From positions 62,001 to 126,000 of the forward strand of contig NZ_SRSO01000008.1 of assembly GCF_004791695.1 (NCBI RefSeq): a DNA stretch of 64,000 nt, read 5' to 3'. Under the pieces are notes generated by a model. The model worked only from the letters and a program-made list of their open reading frames with translations. It was not told the origin of the DNA and did no database searches. The position numbers were made by a program, and so were the translations under genes. The DNA is from Flavivirga rizhaonensis. Lineage in GTDB: Bacteria; Bacteroidota; Bacteroidia; Flavobacteriales; Flavobacteriaceae. Shown one piece after another: positions 60,820 to 62,971 of this stretch (positions are counted from its first letter, which is position 1; each line of letters begins with the position of its first letter).

Positions 60820-61653
60820 TTATTTATAAACTACGGGAATAATTTCACCTTTTGCTAAGCAATACTTTTCAATAGCTTTTTTTGAAAGGTTAGCTGTGTA
60901 ATCCACTTCATCGACTTTAAAACCAATACTACGGAGTTTATCAAAATAATCACGTCCATAAACGCGTACATGGTCATATTGTCCAAATATTTTGGCACGC
61001 TCTTTTTTATCCGTTATAGTATTATCTTCAAAAGTTTGTTCTCTTGCTAAGTCTTGCGGGATTTGAAAAATACCCATCCCCCCAACCTTTAAAACCCGAT
61101 ACAGTTCTTGCATGGCTTTGGTATCGTCTGGAATATGTTCTAAAACGTGATTGCAAAAAATAATGTCAAATGCATCATCTTTAAATGGGAGGTTACAAAT
61201 GTCGGCTTTTACATCGGCTAAAGGAGAACTCAAATCGGTTGTCACGTAATCAAGATTTTTCATCTTTCTAAAGCGTTTGTAAAATGCTTGTTCTGGGGCA
61301 AAATGCAATACCTTTAATGCCGAACTTGTTTCAGTAGCTCTTAAAATAATTCTTTTCGATTCTTTTTTTGAAGAACCTGAAATAGGTTCAGGTTGAAAGA
61401 AATCAGTTTCGTTTTTTAAATATAACCATAGCAATCTATGACGTTCTAAAGAAAGCGTAGAAGGGGAGAGTACATTGTTACGTTGCTTGCCATAACCATA
61501 TGGTAAAAAACTTTTAAAGCTTCTGCCATCTATAGGATCGGTATAGGTATCACCTTTTAGTAAGAATGCCAAAACAGGACGCACCAAATAACTTAACCTG
61601 ATAAGTAAAGGTCTTGGGGTAAAATTTAGTATGAATTTAAAGAGTTTTTTCAA
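60820..61653 (-). CDS. Class I SAM-dependent methyltransferase
   Basis: The 277-residue protein has a basic N-terminal part (FKFILNFTPRPLLIRLSYLV) and then a Methyltransf_11 domain. Visible are LKVLHFAPEQAFYKRFRKM (motif I region), YVTTDLSSPLADVKADICNL, FDIIFCNHVLEHIPDDTKAM and LYRVLKVGGMGIFQIP. The substrate is unknown; relatives modify sugars or small molecules. A GxxExxY cassette lies directly upstream. Confidence 0.87.
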   Translation of the reverse strand: MKKLFKFILNFTPRPLLIRLSYLVRPVLAFLLKGDTYTDPIDGRSFKSFLPYGYGKQRNNVLSPSTLSLERHRLLWLYLKNETDFFQPEPISGSSKKESKRIILRATETSSALKVLHFAPEQAFYKRFRKMKNLDYVTTDLSSPLADVKADICNLPFKDDAFDIIFCNHVLEHIPDDTKAMQELYRVLKVGGMGIFQIPQDLAREQTFEDNTITDKKERAKIFGQYDHVRVYGRDYFDKLRSIGFKVDEVDYTANLSKKAIEKYCLAKGEIIPVVYK

Positions 61654-61673: not shown

Positions 61674-61702
61674 GACACGAATCTCACTAATTTTCACGAA
61701 TC
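61674..61702. repeat. Left inverted repeat of the GxxExxY cassette
   Basis: GACACGAATCTCACTAATTT and then TCACGAATC. It matches the reverse complement of 62118-62144 at about 25 of 29 positions and ends two bases before the GxxExxY stop codon. Confidence 0.75.
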
Positions 61703-61703
61703 A

Positions 61704-62078
61704 TTATAATACAATTCGTTTGTATTTTAAGCTATCTTCTCCAAAGTTAATTAATAAACCAAGTTTCAATTTTGACACTGCAAGATAGTTTAACGTCTGT
61801 TTTATGTTAGAAGTAGTTAAACAGTTAATTGCTTTTAGTTCCAATACTATTTTATCATTTATAATAAAATCAGCTTTATATTTATGTGGTAGTAAATTTC
61901 CTTTGTAAGTAATACCAAATTTCCTTTCTCTGGAATACGGTATTCCATTATCCATTAATTCTATTTCTAAAGCATCTGCATAAACAACTTCATTAAAGCC
62001 TTTTCCTAATTGATTATGTACTTCCATACAAATACCAATAATTTTATAGGCTTCTTCTTTATAAATTAAATCAGACAT
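61704..62078 (-). CDS. GxxExxY protein
   Basis: The 124-residue protein has the naming motif as GKGFNEVVYADAL and the downstream core YKGNLLPHKYKADFIINDKI, VLELKAINCL and NYLAVSKLKLGLLINFG. The D-x(n)-ELK pattern points to the PD-(D/E)XK nuclease-like superfamily. The cellular role is unknown. Such genes occur in many copies and positions in Bacteroidota. Here the gene lies between inverted repeats in a 471-base cassette, which suggests mobility. Confidence 0.9.
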   Translation of the reverse strand: MSDLIYKEEAYKIIGICMEVHNQLGKGFNEVVYADALEIELMDNGIPYSRERKFGITYKGNLLPHKYKADFIINDKIVLELKAINCLTTSNIKQTLNYLAVSKLKLGLLINFGEDSLKYKRIVL

Positions 62079-62117
62079 ATAGTATTAAGCAAATAGAAAA
62101 AAGATATTGAGTAAGTA

Positions 62118-62144
62118 TTAGTGCAAATTAGTGAAATTCGTGTC
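62118..62144. repeat. Right inverted repeat of the GxxExxY cassette
   Basis: TTAGTGCAAATTAGTGAAAT then TCGTGTC is the inverted partner of 61674-61702. It lies 40 bases upstream of the GxxExxY start codon and just after the map stop codon. Confidence 0.75.
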
Positions 62145-62152
62145 TAAAAAAA

Positions 62153-62971
62153 TTAAAGGACTAAAGCCTTTTGTCTAAATTCATCTTCTTCAGTGCTCAC
62201 AATTCCTAAAGCTTCATGTACATAAGCAAACGTTGACAATATTTCAGGTTTTCCATCTACAAGTGCCACGTCATGTTCAAAATGAACACTAGGCTTACCA
62301 TCTTGAGTAACAATAGTCCAACCGTCTTTTAATTGCCTTACTTTATGAGTGCCTCCATTTATCATTGGCTCAATGGCGACTACCATACCTTCAACAAATT
62401 TCTTACCACGACCACGCTTACCGTAATTTGGCATTTCTGGATCTTCATGCATCTTTTTACCCAAGCCATGACCAACTAATTCCCGAACAACACCATAACC
62501 ATGAGATTCACAGTGTTGTTGAATAGCATAACCAACATCACCCACGCGATTATTGATTTTAAATTCCCTAATACCAATATAAAGTGATTCTTTAGTGACC
62601 TGTATAAGCTTTTTTGTTTCAGGGTCTACCTCTCCAATTTCGAAAGTATAGGCATGATCTCCGTAAAACTCGTTCATTAATGCACCGCAGTCAATAGAAA
62701 CAATATCACCATCTTTTAAAGGTGTTTGTGTTGGTAAACCATGTACTACAGCCTCGTTTACGCTACAAAGTAAAGTTGATGGACAGTCGTACAACCCTAA
62801 AAACCCTGGTAAAGCCCCTTGATCTCTTATAAATTCTTCAGCAAGTTTATCTAGTTGCATGGTGGAAACCCCTTCCTTAACTTCTTTGGCAAGCATACCA
62901 AGCGTTTTTGAAACTATTAATGCACTTTGACGCATTAACTCTATTTCTTCTTTTGTTTTTACTACAATCAT
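62153..62971 (-). CDS. map: Type I methionine aminopeptidase
   Basis: Map removes the initiator Met from new proteins. The 272-residue enzyme has the pita-bread fold and metal ligands visible in SIDCGALMNEFYGDHAYTF (two Asp), ELVGHGLGKKMHEDPEMPNY (His), VVAIEPMINGG (Glu) and HFEHDVALVDGKPE (Glu). The start MIVVKTKEEIELMRQSALIV is typical. A TATCTTTG box at 62989-62996 on the minus strand is a likely -7 element. Confidence 0.96.
   Translation of the reverse strand: MIVVKTKEEIELMRQSALIVSKTLGMLAKEVKEGVSTMQLDKLAEEFIRDQGALPGFLGLYDCPSTLLCSVNEAVVHGLPTQTPLKDGDIVSIDCGALMNEFYGDHAYTFEIGEVDPETKKLIQVTKESLYIGIREFKINNRVGDVGYAIQQHCESHGYGVVRELVGHGLGKKMHEDPEMPNYGKRGRGKKFVEGMVVAIEPMINGGTHKVRQLKDGWTIVTQDGKPSVHFEHDVALVDGKPEILSTFAYVHEALGIVSTEEDEFRQKALVL

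Follow-up and report, generated by a model that had tools for sequence, protein, structure and literature searches.

We asked what kind of unit is formed by a small GxxExxY gene that lies between map and a methyltransferase gene in Flavivirga rizhaonensis. The DNA analyzed is a 64,000-nt stretch of contig NZ_SRSO01000008.1, referred to here as the window. The initial annotation of this stretch had described a complete gene within matching inverted repeats of about 27-29 bases and had suggested a self-contained mobile cassette. The features of the locus are as follows.

61674..61701, plus strand: left terminal array of three inward CACnAAT units (CACGAAT, CACTAAT, CACGAAT), from the top-scoring inverted repeat and oriented unit counts
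62117..62144, minus strand: right terminal array of three inward CACnAAT units (CACGAAT, CACTAAT, CACTAAT), from the same two lines of evidence
61704..62078, minus strand: GxxExxY gene, 124 aa, PD-(D/E)XK nuclease family, from profile matches and conserved residues
61661..61667, plus strand: single CGCCGAG unit of the GG (CACAGAG-like) type, outside the left arm and beside the methyltransferase start, where the outermost GG unit of congeners also lies
62153..62971, minus strand: map (methionine aminopeptidase; Peptidase_M24), upstream neighbor in the direction of transcription, from open reading frame and profile
60820..61653, minus strand: methyltransferase gene, downstream neighbor, from open reading frame and profile

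The three genes are co-directional. We scanned the whole window and 60 Markov control windows for inverted repeats, using 9-nt seeds and arms no more than 700 nt apart. The left arm GACACGAATCTCACTAATTTTCACGAAT (61674-61701, plus strand) and the right arm GACACGAATTTCACTAATTTGCACTAAT (62144-62117, minus strand) match over 28 nt with 3 mismatches. Their ungapped score of 19 (+1/-2) is the highest in the window (the runner-up scores 16), and the best inverted repeat of each Markov window reaches at most 18, in agreement with the matched repeats that had been reported around the gene. The longest stretch of exact identity in the pair is 10 nt, too short for seeds of 11 nt. The arms lie 2 nt from the stop codon and 38 nt ahead of the ATG, which confirms their reported placement. 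Within each arm we find a substructure that the initial annotation does not mention: three 7-nt CACnAAT units at steps of 9 and 10 nt, with both arrays facing inward. The Markov controls, together with the control open reading frames described below, rule out that the arms are chance repeats. The cassette thus has inverted terminal repeats, as insertion sequences do. No transposase family is found among the Pfam or NCBIfam matches of the cassette protein at E ≤ 0.01, and by eye we see no clear target-site duplication on comparing empty and filled junctions, where the ends drift between lineages.

The product is a clear member of the GxxExxY family by profile, as had been assumed (TIGR04256: E = 2e-41, 140.8 bits, cut-off 35; PF13366: E = 5e-37, 127.4 bits, cut-off 22). 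It contains Glu-30 and Tyr-33 of the GxxExxY motif, Asp-70, Glu-80-x-Lys-82, and Gln-94-xxx-Tyr-98. Asp-70 is invariant among 18 diverse sequences, in which Glu-80 and Lys-82 are kept in at least 90%, and all three residues are invariant among 30 nearer sequences. The protein therefore has the D...E-x-K active site of the PDDEXK_3 family, and Gln-94 and Tyr-98 are likewise conserved in GxxExxY alignments. Its predicted structure (pLDDT 68.8) is without a clear fold match, since BglII, BstYI, and Cas4-type chains appear only amid unrelated entries with similar or better scores, and a sequence-profile search returned no solved structural relative. We calculated dN/dS for 11 pairs and dropped 5 that were out of register; the 6 remaining pairs give values of 0.01-0.085. 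The cassette gene is under purifying selection and its active site is conserved. A phage origin was rejected (with this one protein as query, there is no match in phages and none confirmed in viral contigs), as was a known RNA family (the single match is far below its gathering score), and no PADLOC defense model matches the protein at E = 0.1. GxxExxY proteins are common: of 296 genomes sampled across the phylum, 152 have matches, with up to 12 in a single genome. The portions of PMC papers covered by our literature search hold no account of GxxExxY function, of the arrays or of a cassette architecture.

Similar arrays flank GxxExxY genes elsewhere. Among 80 relatives (the best 80 of 170 found, one genome per species), 75 are flanked by CACnAAT-like arrays, the upstream one lying on the plus strand and the downstream one on the minus strand, compared with 5 matches in 420 kb of shuffled control. 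Remoter GxxExxY genes carry arrays of other sequence (CACAGAG, CGCAAAG, CGCAGAT, CACGGAT, and others). Most fit a 7-nt core, CRCNRAK, repeated with a period of 8-11 nt; one clade with TGAACTATGATTTT-type ends does not. We name the unit types by their bases 5 and 7 (AT, CACnAAT; GG, CACAGAG-like; AG, CGCAAAG-like; GT, CGCAGAT-like). We counted the core in 300 nt of flank on either side of the gene at 140 loci. Upstream, the plus strand has 459 copies and the minus strand 92; downstream, the minus strand has 470 and the plus strand 111. This set leaves out fragments and stop-broken copies (L126, L127, L134, L147, L234, L235, L242-L249) and duplicates (L001, L002, L241).

At least two correctly oriented units per side are found at 125 of the 140 loci, and units in the reversed orientation at 8. 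Split by origin, the numbers are 79 correct and 1 reversed among 81 loci (the window and its 80 relatives, mostly at one site) and 46 correct and 7 reversed among the 59 others. The failures are loci with few units, mostly of the TGAACTATGATTTT-type clade. In 45 control open reading frames from the same loci, with flanks that avoid the cassette, we count none in either orientation. We also tested a second set of 30 loci, obtained from the top-scoring matches in the 296 genomes of the phylum, and count 27 correct and 3 reversed. Plain inverted-repeat scores reach at least 13 at 26 of 47 family-level loci and at none of 141 shuffles; the oriented-unit count is the stronger test. The architecture is thus no oddity of the window, and the proposed check, whether repeats bound other GxxExxY genes, has a positive answer in both sets.

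The second GxxExxY gene of the window genome bears its own AG-type array. A Sphingomonas plasmid has a cassette of this design in the gap from fabD to fabG, where CGCGAAG-like units make up a 25-nt inverted repeat, and clear inverted arrays are present in only 1 of the 6 plasmid-borne relatives that we fetched (from 8 plasmid matches). In other phyla and plasmids we see one unit per side (Treponema) or units in direct rather than inverted order (a Fusobacteria plasmid), and GxxExxY loci of Gemmatirosa, Persicobacter, and Prevotella returned no arrays. Five loci (L049, L051, L052, L060, L081) have several arrays on one or both sides, in steps of ∼33 to 160 nt, with an orientation that mostly flips at the gene. 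Outside the family, S23/IVS four-helix-bundle genes of the window genome (L148-L155, 8 of its 11 PF05635 matches) are also found between inverted arrays, with 7-8-nt units such as AGACTGA or TTCAGTG; 3 of the 8 have an inverted-repeat score of at least 13.

The unit type follows the protein. On a tree of 89 proteins, in which the 19 rows without a clear unit type form a fifth group, unit type requires 23 changes compared with 52.2 in shuffles, and none of 200 shuffles is as low; the 70 labeled rows alone require 11. The deepest split (midpoint root) separates AG, GG, and 4 GT rows from AT and 15 GT rows, with rows of unclear type on both sides. Within protein clades most loci have the same neighbors, and some of the association reflects descent at one common site. 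Where it extends over different clades, sites, and genera, it is best explained by protein and array traveling or evolving together. Since the cores are clade-specific, they suggest that the core is recognized by the protein.

How stable is the cassette at its site? The gene lies between map and the methyltransferase gene, as in the window, in 67 of the 80 best relatives, and we therefore rejected a fresh insertion unique to the window genome. In a family-wide sample of 149 genomes (148 genera), 32 have a TIGR04256 match, and in 14 of these the gene is within ∼230 nt of map (by coordinates, broken copies included). We surveyed the junction in the 30 genomes whose map genes are most similar to that of the window (29 genera, with the window genome and one congener included). 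The gap between map and the methyltransferase gene is only 2-11 nt in 10 genomes and 86 nt in 1. Four genomes, including that of the window, have an AT cassette and 4 a GG cassette (one broken), 5 have a DUF3050-like gene (one verified) and 5 a cupin-like gene (by eye), and in 1 there is no methyltransferase within reach. AT and GG proteins at this junction are 35-42% identical. In the ends that we inspected, the non-GxxExxY genes have no such arrays. Orthologous junctions lacking the cassette, which the initial annotation had proposed to look for, are thus found, the gap being nearly empty in 11 of 30 genomes and holding another cassette or gene in others. These empty and alternative states rule out a fixed host gene at the map site; a nuclease gene lies between conserved genes and is missing in relatives, as expected for a homing endonuclease.

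At many AT loci, one cassette end seems to supply the map stop codon (T(A)GACACGAAT) and the other the GTG start of the methyltransferase (ATTCGTGTCA), as judged by eye with putative start sites. Ends that carry stop and start codons would explain how a cassette fits inside a tight gene pair. One otherwise empty junction (L255) contains a solo array of the S23 type (CAGTTTACAGTAAACAGTTAACAGTTTTCAGT), which seemingly alters the map end. Two records titled as Rhizobium and Bifidobacterium metagenome-assembled genomes (L053, L068) carry the map-GxxExxY-methyltransferase block; their bins or labels look wrong, because the block is flavobacterial.

The state of the junction changes even within the genus. 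Among 12 congeners (the named members of this clade are Flavivirga), 5 have an intact and 1 a broken AT cassette, 5 have a GG cassette, and 1 has another gene. On a tree of map plus methyltransferase DNA the AT and GG states interleave: AT needs 4 changes, 2 of which are forced by well supported branches. G149 (GG) is sister to G151 (AT) with support 100/99, and the window genome (AT) adjoins both, again with 100/99. In the window and in G151 (L018), a single GG unit is located between the AT array and the methyltransferase start (with one mismatch also in G150, L023), at the position of the outermost unit of the congeners' GG cassettes. We read this lone unit as the remnant of a GG cassette that was replaced by an AT cassette. 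Alternatively, both cassettes may once have stood in tandem in an ancestor, one of them being lost later, although by eye we find no AT unit beside GG cassettes. The cassette behaves as a discrete, replaceable unit.

Much of its history is vertical, as distances between AT proteins at the map site track map distances (Spearman 0.64, 75 loci). There are exceptions, in which close relatives diverge much more in the gene than in its surroundings. The flanks of the window cassette are 85-90% identical in DNA to those of G019 and the genes 76%; for two Lacinutrix genomes the values are 86-90% and 73%. When we tested on trees whether AT cassettes had moved from genus to genus, the results were weak and mixed: monophyly of Bizionia is rejected with protein (p = 0.0003) but not with DNA (p = 0.057), and it is not rejected for the window's own genus (p = 0.16 and 0.55) or for Lacinutrix (p = 0.09 and 0.16). 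Decayed copies are common: in 4 of the 32 genomes all listed copies are fragmentary or interrupted by stop codons, and four congeners have a broken or partial AG copy at the second site. None of 34 within-genome GxxExxY pairs reaches 60% identity (p = 0.027, indicative only, as the pairs are non-independent). Neighboring GxxExxY copies occur at two places (G248, G350). The combination of intact, selected copies with frequent decay and a patchy distribution is more in keeping with a selfish gene maintained through recurrent spread than with a gene needed by the host.

Arrays also occur without a gene. When up to 3 mismatches are allowed, the 24-mer of the arm matches the window genome at 15 sites, both cassette arms included, and the reversed pattern at none. 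The 12 congeners have 2-109 triple arrays each (up to 1 mismatch), with control counts of 0 and once 1. With own arms counted, triple AT-type arrays number 7, 20, 27, 74, and 109 in species with a GG cassette, 2, 2, 8, 12, and 39 in those with an intact AT cassette, and 2 each in the species with the broken AT cassette and the one with neither. Arrays are no fewer where the AT gene is missing, and within this genus they are therefore independent of a resident AT gene. Family-wide, exact triple AT-type arrays are found in 12 of 149 genomes (control 0 in all), and 9 of these 12 have a GxxExxY gene compared with 23 of the 137 others (Fisher 5e-5, the cassette's own arms being counted). The corresponding GG-type pattern, which is too strict, matches 2 of 149 genomes, both with a GxxExxY gene. 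We excluded that the dispersed arrays are dead GxxExxY genes, as a search of 53 such loci at E = 1e-3 yields no trace of one.

The best preserved dispersed family that we saw is a miniature element of the congener G153 (L206-L225), ∼300 nt long and present in many similar copies. Its CACnAAT arrays are spaced ∼220 nt apart and are enclosed by outer inverted repeats of 19 nt (CAGCTACGGTGTACCCACA), which suggest that another transposase may move it; by eye, copies are often centered in palindromes such as CCTGCCTGCCGG. Some dispersed arrays lie beside IS200-like ends, and in several gene-less array pairs the left end differs from the right. At least some of the dispersed arrays are thus carried as passengers by other elements. 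An IS200-like open frame (Y1_Tnp) is located at L005:1802-2014, and in the flanks of L005, L011, and L017 solo CACnAAT arrays adjoin hairpin-containing sequence like that preceding this frame. Elsewhere, five GG-type triple arrays follow each other in direct order, 212-220 nt apart (G069:C1:131657-132547), and in G084 (L166-L170, by eye) arrays of several unit types stand next to or inside one another at a single place.

Several explanations may be considered for these observations. The arrays could be binding sites of the transposase type at which the GxxExxY protein, by itself or together with a second enzyme, cuts the cassette ends for excision and insertion, in the manner of RAYT/REPIN or the TnsA part of Tn7, with gene-less pairs as miniature non-autonomous copies. 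The inverted, repeated, and clade-matched ends would suit this model, as would the gene-less array pairs in many genomes, several with distinct ends, and the excess of GxxExxY genes in array-bearing genomes. We nevertheless consider it unlikely: the G153 family may be moved by another transposase, array copy number does not track the AT gene in the genus, closely similar copies within a genome and visible target-site duplications are lacking in our comparisons, and the same sites recur. That the gene instead serves the host, as a DNA- or RNA-processing or defense protein with the arrays as its own operators and movement only by recombination in neighboring genes, would be in line with purifying selection, conserved catalytic residues, partly vertical descent, and clade-matched sites of a binding protein just upstream and downstream of the gene. 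An operator leaves the mirror-image array after the stop codon unexplained, however, and with a patchy distribution (32 of 149 family genomes), the broken or partial copies noted above, and the negative PADLOC result, we regard this account as rather improbable.

Pairing at the RNA level offers a further explanation, in which the arms form a terminal stem that isolates the cassette in a polycistronic mRNA, as an RNase III target, and renders the insertion harmless, similar to a 23S intervening sequence (IVS). The fold calculated for the cassette RNA spans it from one end to the other (z = -3.67 compared with 100 shuffles), and its size and repeat length resemble those of a 428-nt IVS with a 28-bp terminal stem in the available text of PMC4990558. 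IVS-family genes in the same genome have inverted arrays as well (3 of 8 tested score at least 13, compared with 0 of 24 shuffles), and the variable fourth base of facing units agrees in 41, 32, and 40 of 75 cases, compared with 26.9, 22.7, and 27.3 in shuffles. Yet this base still differs in about half of the cases, and pairing is thus not strictly kept; a stem has no need of an 8-11-nt period, and the clade-specific cores point to recognition by a protein. We judge an RNA-level element very unlikely.

The reading that we prefer, and to which we assign a little less than an even chance, is that of a selfish, homing-like intergenic nuclease cassette that would act at such arrays. The unit comprises a single PD-(D/E)XK nuclease gene with inverted arrays of about three 7-nt cores (CRCNRAK), matched to the nuclease clade, as its ends, and it fills the gap from the stop codon of one gene to the start codon of the next co-directional gene. 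The nuclease would bind its clade-matched arrays and cut the DNA at or beside them; break repair would copy or swap the cassette at the same junction, resulting in homing-like spread, and cassettes would replace each other where an array is already present. Array recognition is proposed because unit type matches protein clade, and replacement because of the junction states and their interleaving within the genus. Self-cutting is the main difficulty. Ordinary homing enzymes avoid cutting their own cassette; an array-recognizing nuclease would threaten its own, and some protection or another cut site must be assumed. The mobile cassette of the initial annotation is partly supported: the unit behaves as a discrete one that is gained, replaced, and lost at the junction, but its recurrence at a few fixed sites (67 of 80 relatives with the same two neighbors) and the absence of within-genome pairs of at least 60% identity (0 of 34) are not what a simple self-transposing element would give.

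Gain, swap, and loss at one gap between ordinary genes suggest a poorly known kind of selfish DNA cassette. It is also possible, at distinctly less than an even chance, that GxxExxY cassettes form a separate class of mobile elements, which would have co-evolving inverted arrays as ends, settle between stop and start codons, invade and replace each other where arrays are already present, and leave behind gene-less arrays that travel with other elements; the S23 (PF05635) genes with 7-nt inverted arrays would then be a second, parallel line. Clade-matched arrays give each GxxExxY protein a predicted DNA target that is testable in vitro, and the map-methyltransferase junction offers natural donors and recipients in which spread could be assayed. 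Some of the short intergenic repeats in these genomes may likewise be due to the arrays.

Three known systems invite comparison. RAYT/REPIN repeats are GTAG-type palindromes, from which the GxxExxY units, 7-nt cores in arrays, differ. RAYT is a Y1 HUH transposase, whereas the cassette protein is a PF13366 member without a Y1_Tnp match. The two systems are alike in that cassette-type inverted repeats also occur dispersed without the gene, RAYT/REPIN combining one gene copy with dispersed, gene-less inverted repeats in the part of PMC8049555 that we could consult. An excess of repeats in gene-bearing genomes in the RAYT/REPIN style is found at the family level (9 of 12 compared with 23 of 137) and not within the genus. 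Unlike RAYT/REPIN, GxxExxY cassettes replace each other at a site, and their dispersed arrays do not track the gene in the genus; with arrays as passengers of other elements, the analogy is only partial.

A second parallel is found in the free-standing homing endonucleases of T4-like phages (seg, mob). According to the available sections of PMC2988022, these are single nuclease genes in gaps between conserved genes, several of them promoter-less cassettes in operons, and a title cited there reports different endonuclease genes replacing one another in related phages. The likeness lies in a nuclease gene that occupies an intergenic gap and is replaced by alternatives. The phage enzymes are of the GIY-YIG or HNH type, whereas GxxExxY proteins belong to PD-(D/E)XK; the former cleave DNA at a distance of hundreds of bases or more from where they are inserted, and in the same sections terminal arrays are not described for them, in contrast to the clade-matched inverted arrays at GxxExxY ends. 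Finally, the 23S rRNA IVS with an S23 (PF05635) gene appears in the accessible text of PMC4990558 as a selfish unit of 400-500 nt with one small open reading frame and terminal inverted repeats of ∼28 nt. The cassette shares with it a similar size, a single small reading frame, ∼28-nt terminal repeats, and a placement tolerated by the host. The IVS encodes an S23 protein within rRNA, whereas the cassette encodes a PF13366 protein between protein genes and has oriented unit arrays as its ends.
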